Source of the DNA: Alphaproteobacteria bacterium
GTDB lineage: Bacteria; Pseudomonadota; Alphaproteobacteria; Micropepsales; Micropepsaceae
DNA length: 39,383 nucleotides
Direction of reading: 5' to 3'
Assembly: GCA_013140995.1 (NCBI GenBank)
Contig: JABFRX010000255.1
Coordinates: forward strand, 1-39,383
The notes under the pieces were generated by a model. That model made no database searches, was not told where the DNA came from, and was given only the letters and a program-made list of their open reading frames with translations. Each line of letters opens with the position of its first letter. Position 1 is the first letter of the stretch. The translations under genes and the position numbers were made by a program. Positions 34,037-37,972 of this stretch are shown piece after piece.

Positions 34037-35021
34037 CCCCCAACAGGGTGCGCCCTCGGCCGATCACAGCCCGGACACCCCAAAGCCGTCTTCTTGGCCG
34101 CAGGCGTTCGTGAGCGCCATGCGCAAGCTCGTTGGCGTCAGAGAAGACGCGACGAAGCTACGGGAAAGCTTGGAAGAGGTCATCGAGGAGAGCGAGGCCG
34201 CGAACCGGCCACTCGCGCGCGAAGAGCGCTCGATGATGCTCAACATCCTGAATTTCGGCGAACTGAAGGTCGTCGATGTGATGGTCCCGCGTGCCGATAT
34301 TATTGCAGTCGCGGAAGACACGCCGATTGCGGAGCTTGTGAAGATTTTCCGCGATGCGCAGCATTCGCGGCTGCCGATCTATCGCGATACGCTCGATAAC
34401 CCGGTCGGCATGGTGCACATAAAAGACCTAATCGGGCTTGCCATTCCAGAAGCTGAGGGCGCGCAACATCCGAAGGCGATTCAGGACATAGTGCGCGCGG
34501 TGCTGTTCGTGCCCCCGTCGATGCCGGTCGTGAATTTGCTCGTGAAAATGCAGGCGACGCGCATGCATCTGGCGCTGGTCATCGATGAATACGGCGGCAC
34601 CGATGGGTTGGTTTCGATCGAGGATTTGGTCGAACAGATCGTGGGCGACATCGAGGACGAGCACGACGACGATGCGACGAAGATGATCCTGCCGCGGGCG
34701 CCCGGCGAGTTCGACGCCAGTGCGCGCGCCGATCTTGAGGAAGTCGAGAAGGTCGTGGGGTTCCCGCTCGTCGACGAGGAAGAAGCCGAGGAAATCGATA
34801 CGCTGGCTGGCTTGGTATTCTCACTCGTCGGGCGGGTGCCGCAACGCGGCGAGATCGTGAAGCATCCGGCCGGCGTCGAGTTCGAAGTGCTGGACGCCGA
34901 TCCGCGCCGGCTCAAGCGGCTGCGCGTGCGCGTGACCAAGCCGAAGGACGACGCACCGGCGGAGCCTGCCGCCGAAGACAGCGAAGCCTCGCGCAAGCCG
35001 ATGGCCGCGGTGAATGGCTGA
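34029..35021 (+). CDS. CorC/YbeX-type CBS-domain protein
   Basis: The 330-residue soluble protein has two CBS domains (about 75-200; VMVPRADIIAVAEDTPIAELV, SRLPIYRDTLDNPVGMVHIKDLI, ALVIDEYGGTDGLVSIEDLVEQIVGDIEDEHD) and a C-terminal CorC_HlyC transporter-associated domain (about 230-310). It lacks the DUF21 membrane part of larger relatives. CorC was first linked to magnesium/cobalt efflux, and YbeX is now tied to ribosome metabolism. The ybeZ-ybeY-ybeX-lnt order here mirrors E. coli. GTG start overlaps ybeY, and the stop overlaps lnt. Confidence 0.92.
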   Translation: MPDPQQGAPSADHSPDTPKPSSWPQAFVSAMRKLVGVREDATKLRESLEEVIEESEAANRPLAREERSMMLNILNFGELKVVDVMVPRADIIAVAEDTPIAELVKIFRDAQHSRLPIYRDTLDNPVGMVHIKDLIGLAIPEAEGAQHPKAIQDIVRAVLFVPPSMPVVNLLVKMQATRMHLALVIDEYGGTDGLVSIEDLVEQIVGDIEDEHDDDATKMILPRAPGEFDASARADLEEVEKVVGFPLVDEEEAEEIDTLAGLVFSLVGRVPQRGEIVKHPAGVEFEVLDADPRRLKRLRVRVTKPKDDAPAEPAAEDSEASRKPMAAVNG

Positions 35022-36612
35022 ATCGATCGGTGATCGCCTAACAAAAATCGATTTGCCGGGACGCGTTGAAGGCGCGGCCACTTGGTTTCGCTCCTGCGTT
35101 GGGCGCGGACGACTGTTTGTTGCGGCGGGCCTTGGGGCAGTTTCCGCGTTGGCCTATGCGCCGTTCTACGCTTGGCCGCTGCTGCTCCTCACGTTCCCGG
35201 CGCTTGTTTGGCTGATCGATGGCGCCGTTTACATGCGGCGGCCGTGGGCGACCGCCGCGCAGATCGGGTGGGCGTTTGGGTTCGGATATTTTCTTGTCGG
35301 ACTTCATTGGATCGGATTTGCGTTCGTCGTCGATTCCGACAGACATGCGTGGCTCCTGCCGTTTGTGGCGGTGCTCTTTCCCGGCGGACTTGCGTTGTTC
35401 TTCGCGCTTGCTGCCGGCGTCGCGCGGCTAAGGTGGGCCGGATGGGCGCGCGTATTCGTGCTTGGGGCTGCGCTTGCTGCCGTCGAATGGCTACGTGGGC
35501 ATATCCTCACTGGCCTTCCGTGGAACCTGCCCGGCTATGTTTGGTCGGGCACGGATGCGATGTTTCAGGCGGTGTCGCTATTCGGCATTTACGGCTTGAG
35601 TTTGGTTACACTGATCGCACTGCTCGCACCTGCTACAATCGTCGATGCCAATGGTGGCCGCTCCAACGCGCGTTGGATTTTGGCGTTGGCCCCGCTGTTG
35701 TTGGCAGGGTTGTTCGTCTTCGGATGGATTCGGCTGCCGGCTGACGCGGCGCCGGTGGATGTCGATGTCACGTTGCGGATCGTGCAGCCGAATGTTGCGC
35801 AGACGGAGAAATGGAAGCCTGAGTTTTTCGAGCGGAACTGGCGCGTTCTGATCGACCAAACCGCTAAGCCCGGGATCGAGACCCGCACCGTCGTCATATG
35901 GCCGGAAGCAGCGCCGCCGCTTGCGCTTTTGGAGCATCCGGACGCGCTAAAGGCGGCGGCCATGGTGCTGCCCGACCGGACGACGCTGCTGACGGGTACG
36001 ATCAGGATTGAGCAGGGCGAGAAGCGACGATTTTTCAATAGCATGGCGGCGGTGTCCGGGAGCGGCCAGGTGCTTGCGACCTACGATAAGGCGCACCTCG
36101 TTCCGTTTGGGGAGTACCTCCCACTCTTTTGGCTATTGGAGCCACTTGGCGTTTCGCAGATCACCGGCAGCGGTCAGGGGTACACGGAGGGTTCGGGCAT
36201 CCGAACGCTAACCATTCCGAACGTGCCACCCTTTAGCCCACTGATTTGCTACGAGCTGATTTTCCCAGGCGAAGTTTCGGCTCCAAAACAACGGCCCGAA
36301 TGGTTGATGACGATGACCGACGATTCTTGGTTTGGTCCGTGGACGGGACCTTACCAACACCTTGGTATCGCGAAAATTCGCGCGGCAGAAGAAGGATTGC
36401 CCGTGGTTCGTGCAGCCAATACGGGAGTGTCCGCAGTCATCGACCCCTATGGGCGAATCACTTCGTCGCTCGGGCTCGATAGGAGCGGAATCCTGGACGC
36501 CGAACTGCCGCGTCCGTTGCCGCGCACGCTCTACTCCATCGCAGGCGATGTAATTTTTTTGCTGATGCTTCTTGCTGCAACGGGCGTTGGACTCGTTTTT
36601 TCCAAGAGCTAG
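35014..36612 (+). CDS. lnt: Apolipoprotein N-acyltransferase
   Basis: The 532-residue inner-membrane enzyme adds the third acyl chain to the N-terminal cysteine of lipoproteins. Several N-terminal membrane helices are followed by a periplasmic nitrilase domain with the catalytic triad visible as E in IWPEAAPP, K in YDKAHLVPFGEYLP and C in LICYELIFPGEV. DDSWFGPWTGPYQHLGIAKIRAAE is also conserved. A final C-terminal helix closes the protein. It is last in the phoH-ybeY-corC-lnt run. No terminator with a U-tract follows. Confidence 0.95.
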   Translation: MAESIGDRLTKIDLPGRVEGAATWFRSCVGRGRLFVAAGLGAVSALAYAPFYAWPLLLLTFPALVWLIDGAVYMRRPWATAAQIGWAFGFGYFLVGLHWIGFAFVVDSDRHAWLLPFVAVLFPGGLALFFALAAGVARLRWAGWARVFVLGAALAAVEWLRGHILTGLPWNLPGYVWSGTDAMFQAVSLFGIYGLSLVTLIALLAPATIVDANGGRSNARWILALAPLLLAGLFVFGWIRLPADAAPVDVDVTLRIVQPNVAQTEKWKPEFFERNWRVLIDQTAKPGIETRTVVIWPEAAPPLALLEHPDALKAAAMVLPDRTTLLTGTIRIEQGEKRRFFNSMAAVSGSGQVLATYDKAHLVPFGEYLPLFWLLEPLGVSQITGSGQGYTEGSGIRTLTIPNVPPFSPLICYELIFPGEVSAPKQRPEWLMTMTDDSWFGPWTGPYQHLGIAKIRAAEEGLPVVRAANTGVSAVIDPYGRITSSLGLDRSGILDAELPRPLPRTLYSIAGDVIFLLMLLAATGVGLVFSKS

Positions 36613-36625
36613 ACCATAAAGACAG

Positions 36626-36654
36626 TTGACCATTACAACCGTGTAGCGTTTAGT
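36626..36654 (+). promoter_or_regulatory. Candidate sigma70-type promoter for the rod RNA
   Basis: TTGACC (36626-36631) and TTTAGT (36649-36654) are 17 bp apart. This gives five of six matches to the -35 consensus and four of six to the -10. The expected start, about seven bases on, is near 36661, within two bases of the first paired nucleotide of the long hairpin at 36663. Confidence 0.5.
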
Positions 36655-36660
36655 GAGAAT

Positions 36661-36829
36661 CATTGAAGTCTAGGTTGGCTACTGGGGGCCGCCTGAGTGA
36701 CGGATCTGCAAAGCGCGAGGGGTCGTGCTGCGTCCGTTGGTCCCCCACAAGTTGCCGTCCTAGACCTCAAGCGGAAGTGCCTGCTTGCGTGATTGCCCCG
36801 GGGGGCAAGGCCAGCAAAAAAAGTTGGCC
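36661..36829 (+). ncRNA. Candidate structured RNA: 108-nt rod plus two hairpins
   Basis: Bases 36663-36674 pair with 36759-36770 (11 of 12). Further helices follow inward: TGGGGG (36683-36688) with CCCCCA (36742-36747), ACGGA (36700-36704) with TCCGT (36733-36737), GCA with TGC, and GCGCGA (36713-36718) with TCGTGC (36723-36728) around a GGGG loop. About 39 pairs form by hand count, with one 9-nt one-sided bulge (36691-36699). Then TTGCCC (36793-36798) pairs with GGGCAA (36803-36808). Directly abutting it, GGCCAGC (36809-36815) pairs with GTTGGCC (36823-36829) around an A7 loop. I could not match it to SRP RNA, 6S, tmRNA or a known riboswitch. It is either a free RNA or the leader of the xre gene. 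The 3' end is undefined. Confidence 0.5.
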
Positions 36830-36912
36830 ACAGACAAAGACGTTTCGTGGGGCTTGGTTGCAGTCTTGTGCTGCGGTCAGGCTGTCTTGTCAGTCGTATA
36901 GGAGTTCCCCCC

Positions 36913-37386
36913 TTGGCCAAGAAGCAACCCTCTTCAGTTGATGCACATGTCGGTAGCCGCGTCCGTCTTCGCCGGATGCTGATCGGTATGAGTCAGGAAA
37001 AGCTCGGCGAATTGCTGGGTCTGACGTTCCAACAAGTTCAGAAGTACGAAAAAGGCGCCAATCGTATCGGCGCAAGCAGACTGTTCGATATCTCGTCGAT
37101 CCTCGGCGTTCCGGTGTCGTATTTCTTCGACGACCTTCCCGCAACCGATCCTGCGTTTCGTAAGCGCGAAGGCGGGGCTGCCGCGGCGACGGATGTCGAT
37201 GCCGGTCCTTACATGATGGAATTCGTGTCGAGCGCGGAGGGTTTCCAGCTCGTGCGCGCGTTCACGAAAATCACCGACCCGCGTGTGCGTAAGCGGATGC
37301 TGGAATTGGTGAAATCGCTGACGGGCGAAGAAGAAGTCTATCCCGATTTCCGGGTCGTGGAATTGCGGGAAGCGCAACGCGCTTAA
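36913..37386 (+). CDS. XRE-family (Cro/CI helix-turn-helix) transcriptional regulator
   Basis: The 157-residue product has an N-terminal helix-turn-helix (VGSRVRLRRMLIGMSQEKLGELL, LTFQQVQKYEKGANRIGASRLFDISSILGVPVSYFFDDL, about residues 11-75). A C-terminal helical part follows (GFQLVRAFTKITDPRVRKRMLELVKSL). This is the small alphaproteobacterial regulator type regularly found just before metK. The start is a TTG placed by AGGAG at 36900-36904, eight bases upstream. The longer frame to 36793 runs through the structured leader and is not coding. A strong terminator follows. Its target genes are unknown. Confidence 0.92.
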   Translation: MAKKQPSSVDAHVGSRVRLRRMLIGMSQEKLGELLGLTFQQVQKYEKGANRIGASRLFDISSILGVPVSYFFDDLPATDPAFRKREGGAAAATDVDAGPYMMEFVSSAEGFQLVRAFTKITDPRVRKRMLELVKSLTGEEEVYPDFRVVELREAQRA

Positions 37387-37408
37387 ATTCGTCACCCCTG
37401 ACTGATGA

Positions 37409-37891
<483 letters not shown>

Positions 37892-37915
37892 CGTAACCCG
37901 CCATCCCTGACAGAA

Positions 37916-37957
37916 AGCCGCGCTTTTCGCGACCTGCGAAGGTGCGGCTCTTTTTTT
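37916..37957 (+). terminator. Hairpin with U-tract immediately ahead of metK
   Basis: AGCCGC (37916-37921) pairs with GCGGCT (37944-37949), and an inner TTCGC (37926-37930) pairs with GCGAA (37936-37940). CTTTTTTT follows. It could end the RND remnant's old transcript, but only about 15 nt separate the U-tract from the metK ATG, so it may instead act on metK expression. Confidence 0.65.
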
Positions 37958-37972
37958 GGCGAGCTTCGATAC

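Follow-up and report, generated by a model that had tools for sequence, protein, structure and literature searches.

A structured RNA between lnt and xre in one genus of the Micropepsaceae, a candidate leader of the xre message

What kind of element is the long RNA rod predicted between the genes lnt and xre in an alphaproteobacterium of the family Micropepsaceae: a stand-alone RNA, a leader of the xre message, or a DNA-level signal whose folding is incidental? The rod lies in a stretch of 39,383 nucleotides (contig JABFRX010000255.1), the whole of which we call the window. The lnt-xre gap occupies 36613-36912 and measures 300 bp, as the initial annotation had stated, and the features that we distinguish in and around it are the following, with positions in the window:

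35014-36612: lnt, the gene 5' of the gap
36625-36639, plus strand: GTTG-N7-CAAC inverted repeat overlapping the -35, a possible operator; 9 of 11 genus members keep both half-sites
36626-36654, plus strand: promoter TTGACC-N17-TTTAGT (TTAAGT or TTTAGT in relatives), conserved in the genus
36657-36661, no strand assigned: GAATC, a GANTC site, where transcription is predicted to begin; 8 of 11 genus members have it
36663-36770, plus strand: the rod, with lower stem P1, G-run stem P2 (36683-36688 with 36742-36747), an asymmetric bulge, inner stem P3 and a tip hairpin; marked by its folding z-score and by covariation
36713-36728, plus strand: tip hairpin P4 with a G-rich loop; in a hand-parsed alignment 4 of the 4 innermost pairs show double changes and 44/44 cells are standard
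36800-36809, plus strand: GGG(G0-3)CAAR motif, which may pair with the xre C-run or else with a local CCCC just 5' of the C-run; GGGCAA identical in 11/11
36809-36829, plus strand: hairpin with an A7 loop; double changes in 5 of 7 pairs, 98.7% of cells paired (n=11)
36833-36888, plus strand: third stem domain of the leader; columns 57-60 with 95-98 of alignment A3 (described below) have double changes in 3 of 4 pairs and 90.9% of cells paired
36889-36912, plus strand: GTCAGTCG (found in 9/11), the Shine-Dalgarno sequence AGGAG (36900-36904) and a C6 run (36907-36912)
36913-37386, plus strand: xre, the gene 3' of the leader, an HTH_3 regulator with a TTG start (Pfam HTH_3, E 1.8e-11)

The initial annotation had described a rod of about 39 pairs with a single 9-nt bulge and had named RNA folding as a check. 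On folding, the 108-nt rod (36663-36770) reaches -54.3 kcal/mol with a z-score of -4.70, and none of 200 shuffles is equally stable. It has 40 pairs, so that the rod itself stands, while the single bulge was a simplification of a minimum-free-energy structure with a main 5' bulge of 8 nt, small internal loops and a 4-nt 3' bulge. The region 36661-36829 folds with z -4.12, and the entire gap with z -3.01 on the plus strand (1 of 100 shuffles equally stable) and z -1.35 on the minus strand (11 of 100). Three small hairpins follow the rod rather than the two first reported; the abutting of the final two and the A7 loop of the last had been read correctly. At gathering score no family of Rfam release 15 matched anywhere in the window; at E up to 10 the sole match over 36500-37000 was TLS-PK5 (E 2.5), which is weak and unrelated, and at E up to 1 the sequences of nine relatives (L113 left out) gave no match. 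The earlier view that the rod falls outside known RNA families agrees with these searches.

To delimit the element we examined 96 genomes of the window's family, 11 of its own genus and 85 others. A tree of Lnt and Xre pieces from 103 loci groups the loci of this family with Rhizomicrobium, in keeping with a probable placement in the Micropepsaceae. Most of the gap was matched by DNA search in 8 of the 11 genus genomes (the window's included) and the promoter only in two more; anchoring on xre recovered it in all 11, each of which has the rod tip hairpin and carries the element immediately upstream of xre and in the same direction. Elsewhere in the family the lnt-xre gap is smaller: 18 of 19 loci have 65-171 nt and G008 has 232 nt, measured to the first aligned Xre residue. 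Among the 73 named loci with an lnt match it ranges from 67 to 596 nt. We built covariance models of the rod from 6 sequences (R1) and of the 3' half from all 11 (R2). R1 found 9 of the 11 genus members (L120 and L121 were missed) and none of the 85 other family genomes, and R2 found all 11 and one of the 85, G054 (E 0.0077), where the match shares a contig with xre but lies 31 kb away and is treated as chance. In class samples of 385 genomes, R1 matched one genome (L156) and R2 two (L158, L159) besides the window's own; as their E values of 0.003-0.008 are about what chance would give among 384 genomes, and these loci of ~3.1 kb have no lnt or xre match, we treat them likewise instead of as wider homologues. 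No convincing copy of the rod was recovered among the 85 other family genomes, and by these searches the leader RNA is restricted to one genus.

Isolated rod cores form the P2 stem and the tip hairpin in 11/11 genus members. With longer flanks the minimum-free-energy structure retains the tip hairpin in 11/11 and P2 in 8/11 (absent in L116, L117 and L120), and in the 86-96 nt core of L116 P2 appears in the centroid and not in the minimum-free-energy structure. The 11 cores of this length all have negative but uneven z-scores, from -4.29 to -0.27, those of L116, L117, L119 and L120 falling between -1.31 and -0.27; the window's own core of 94 nt, shorter than the full rod, scores -1.76. In a covariance-model alignment of nine of the 11 sequences (A8, without L120 and L121), 90.4% of cells are paired, versus 41.6-52.8% for slid partners, and 6 of 19 pairs show double changes, with a covariation score reached by 1 of 500 shuffles; the number of further pair types, reached by 215 of 500, is not in excess of shuffles. 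A hand-parsed alignment of all 11 has the four innermost tip pairs and three inner P3 pairs standard in 76/77 cells, and none of 2000 column shuffles did as well. The tip pairs take up to four forms (C-G, G-C, U-A, A-U) while the loop remains G-rich, being GGGG in 8/11 and GAGGG in 3/11 (L117, L120, L121) by the hand parse. P2 is nearly invariant across the genus, with a strongly conserved 5' side, and the bulge of the rod is not conserved. The 3' half was analyzed in a MAFFT alignment of the 11 sequences (A3) with a structure from RNAalifold on that same alignment: 97.1% of cells are paired, 8 of 16 pairs show double changes and the covariation score is attained by none of 500 shuffles, although these pair counts, like those of the rod parse, lean towards structure because both structures were derived from the sequences tested. 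Here too the number of further pair types shows no excess (reached by 101 of 500 shuffles). Conservation with compensatory changes in relatives, proposed at the outset as a test of the rod, is found by the shuffle tests on A3 and the hand parse (11 genomes) and on A8 (nine genomes), and the leader RNA structure is, judging by these substitutions, under selection.

The promoter had been called from the window by its TTGACC (36626-36631), 17-nt spacer and TTTAGT (36649-36654), with a predicted start at the rod, and the relatives uphold this call. TTGACC is identical in 11/11 genus members, the -10 is kept in 10/11, and the promoter is the best conserved stretch, with a mean column identity of 87%. 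A generic sigma-70 scan of the window did not list it, since that scan demands an A at position 2 of the -10 hexamer, which is missing here. The exception, L118 (genome G091), retains TTGACC and the tip hairpin, but neither the conserved -10 nor the whole of the spacer motif. The GAATC at the predicted start fits GANTC, the CcrM-type methylation site. The GTTG-N7-CAAC repeat occurs once exactly in the 4.04-Mb genome, with three further copies at two mismatches (reversed control, 1); an inverted-repeat search of 36600-36660 with a minimum length of 8 found nothing. Xre might repress its own promoter through this repeat, but as its half-sites are the words of the PraR palindrome in opposite order, such autoregulation is offered only as a suggestion.

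Transcription from this promoter is predicted to begin near 36661 and to continue into xre. In the part of the window scanned (36400-37100), the plus strand has no terminator-like site from 36661 to xre. Its sole such site, at 36537-36550, falls within lnt and precedes the promoter. Taken as 36537-36560, this hairpin in the 3' end of the lnt coding sequence carries a run of seven Ts. The 3' flank of the A7 hairpin is ACAGACAAAG, with no U-run. Given that no terminator-like site intervenes in the window and that the conserved structure extends from the rod up to the xre ribosome-binding site, a transcript from 36661 would make up the 5' portion of the xre message, with ~250 nt before the TTG. 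A stand-alone small RNA gene, which the placing of the promoter had first suggested, should end in a 3' terminator of its own; with no terminator-like site between rod and xre, and with conserved structure running on, we do not favour that reading. Across the genus, computation recovers a conserved promoter, a covarying rod tip and A7 hairpin, a G-rich tip loop, an invariant GGGCAA and, in 11/11 members, a C-run before the TTG. We lean, with somewhat better than even confidence, towards the feature being the 5' part of a ~250-nt leader of the xre mRNA, which would act in cis on xre. We count against this reading that L118 keeps the structure with a lost -10 and that P2 is near-invariant.

If the leader acts in cis, the unusual start site of xre offers a candidate point of action. 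Runs of C4 to C9 lie immediately 5' of the xre TTG in 11/11 genus members; of 99 loci outside the genus, inspected by eye and with only approximate starts for matches that set in within the protein, three (L038, L136, L139) have C4 abutting the start and none has C5 or a longer run there. The pattern AGGAG-N0-4-C5-NTG has two sites in the 4.04-Mb genome, that of xre included (reversed control, 0). RNAalifold pairs GGGGC with the end of the Shine-Dalgarno sequence and the C-run, a pairing possible in 100% of the cells with letters (n=11); this helix barely varies among the 11 sequences, and covariation therefore cannot test it. In single-sequence ensembles the mean G-run:C-run pairing probability is above 0.5 in 6/11 (L111 0.95, L113 0.95, L116 0.83, L114 0.80, L112 0.75, L117 0.52), 0.39 in L115 and at most 0.04 in L118-L121. 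The lengths of the two runs correlate across related genomes (rho 0.72, p 0.012, phylogeny not corrected). Compared with dinucleotide-shuffled versions (40 for each of 11 leaders, nested single-sequence model), the native leaders do not lower the accessibility of the xre start region (Wilcoxon p 0.70), so that sequestration of the ribosome-binding site beyond chance is unsupported. Our working model, to which we give a little less than an even chance, is that the leader sets xre translation: the G-run (GGGGGGCAAG) or the tip loop would pair with the C-run adjoining the start codon until a signal frees the C-run. A bolder form, in which the rod is a sensor, the G-rich tip and the GGGCAA run compete for the C-run, and a new signal-responsive class of RNA adds control atop promoter autorepression, seems to us rather improbable.

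Other readings draw on the same observations. A trans-acting small RNA, with 36661-36829 processed from the leader or ending there and the G-rich tip loop pairing with C-rich sites in other messages, would be in keeping with the predicted start at the rod, with the compactness and stability of the latter and with a tip loop that stays G-rich while its stem varies; yet its 3' end has no terminator-like site, the conserved structure runs on to the ribosome-binding site, the element stands directly before xre in all 11 genomes, and the Shine-Dalgarno-C5-start pattern is rare in the genome, making this option unlikely. A new riboswitch or protein-binding leader would be a special case of the cis-acting leader, with the rod as sensor and the G-run and C-run as expression platform. 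The varying tip stem around a loop that stays G-rich, the fixed GGGCAA and the strongly conserved 5' side of P2 speak for it, whereas its confinement to one genus, the want of Rfam matches both in the window and in nine relatives, the unconserved bulge and the failure to see a multi-helix ligand core make it quite doubtful.

That only the DNA matters, as promoter and operators, with incidental RNA folding, could draw on the promoter being the best conserved stretch, on the ordinary accessibility of the start region and on the four rod cores (L116, L117, L119, L120) that are little better than shuffles; ~50-170 nt beyond the predicted start, the rod tip and the A7 hairpin both show compensatory changes, which leave this very improbable. 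A 6S-like decoy, which the initial annotation had also entertained, shares the rod with an internal bulge, but no Rfam 6S match appears at E up to 10, the bulge is one-sided where 6S RNA has a central bubble, and the rod lies directly upstream of xre; we give that idea almost no credence. An upstream open reading frame was considered as well. An SD-like GAGGG(G) with an NTG at the tip is present in 6/11 and absent in 5/11; stops interrupt every frame in 7/11 leaders, a stop-free frame existing in L111 (the window), L116, L120 and L121. The window's 92-aa frame at 36663-36941 was rejected because the open frame is not conserved, and a leader peptide was rejected in general since no such frame is conserved across the 11. 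The cis-acting leader of xre is the reading that we prefer.

Of the 96 family genomes, 92 have an Xre homologue. Among 80 named alphaproteobacterial loci, xre is preceded by an lnt match in 73 and accompanied by metK in 51, the latter count being limited by flank length. By its synteny and by the accounts in PMC4327974, PMC3188799, PMC4149787 and PMC5527310, xre looks like a member of the PraR/PhrR group. The regulatory leader first envisaged for xre and metK together remains the best-fitting option for xre and fits metK poorly: between xre and metK the window has terminator-like sites at 37407-37434 and 37934-37947 (shuffles average 0.8) and L112 has one (shuffles 0.5), and since these pattern matches intervene, metK is probably not co-controlled by the leader. 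The xre-metK gap (37387-37972) is 586 bp in the window versus ~80 bp in L112, and the nine relatives tested align only with its end, from about base 493 onwards. The extra stretch encodes the C-terminal piece of an RND transporter (ORF 37484-37891, covering 930-1021 of the 1021 positions of Pfam ACR_tran), also carries a terminator-like hairpin, and is either an insertion remnant or an assembly join.

Taken as a whole, the element is real, structurally conserved and genus-specific, is best read as a leader RNA, and is a candidate for a new family of a known general kind: it has no match in Rfam release 15, is supported by covariation and sits on a regulator gene. Confined to one genus and accompanied by an unusual C-run start site, it makes a small, directly testable case. 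Were the sensor reading true, the genus would gain RNA-level control of a PraR/PhrR-type regulator, on top of autorepression at the promoter. Rhizobial relatives of xre have roles in stress survival (PMC3188799), in the control of R-bodies (PMC5527310) and in attachment and biofilm formation (PMC4149787).

Among known systems, the leader resembles 6S RNA in its long rod, and differs in context and bulge and in giving no covariance-model match. The open-licence literature matches listed include no report of an lnt-xre RNA, nor of a structured leader for the PraR, PhrR or CrdR genes. Like those rhizobial genes (PMC4149787, PMC5527310, PMC4327974, PMC3188799), the gene here encodes an XRE-family regulator; these papers describe praR as autoregulated in R. 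leguminosarum (PMC4149787) and phrR as responding to low pH and other stresses (PMC4327974), and give the PraR SELEX palindrome as CAAC-N5-GTTG (PMC5527310), the half-sites of which stand in the opposite order in the GTTG-N7-CAAC found here. The SAM/SAH riboswitch of Rhodobacterales, which according to PMC2864571 adjoins metK on its 5' side, likewise belongs to an alphaproteobacterial metK neighbourhood, whereas the present leader precedes xre and is parted from metK by terminator-like sites. The SAM-II riboswitch of Sinorhizobium metA, described in PMC9373788 as a structured 5' leader acting at the translation start, has a known ligand and another architecture, unlike the xre leader with neither ligand nor Rfam match assigned and with only candidate action at the ribosome-binding site; what the two have in common is a structured 5' UTR set beside the Shine-Dalgarno sequence in an alphaproteobacterium.
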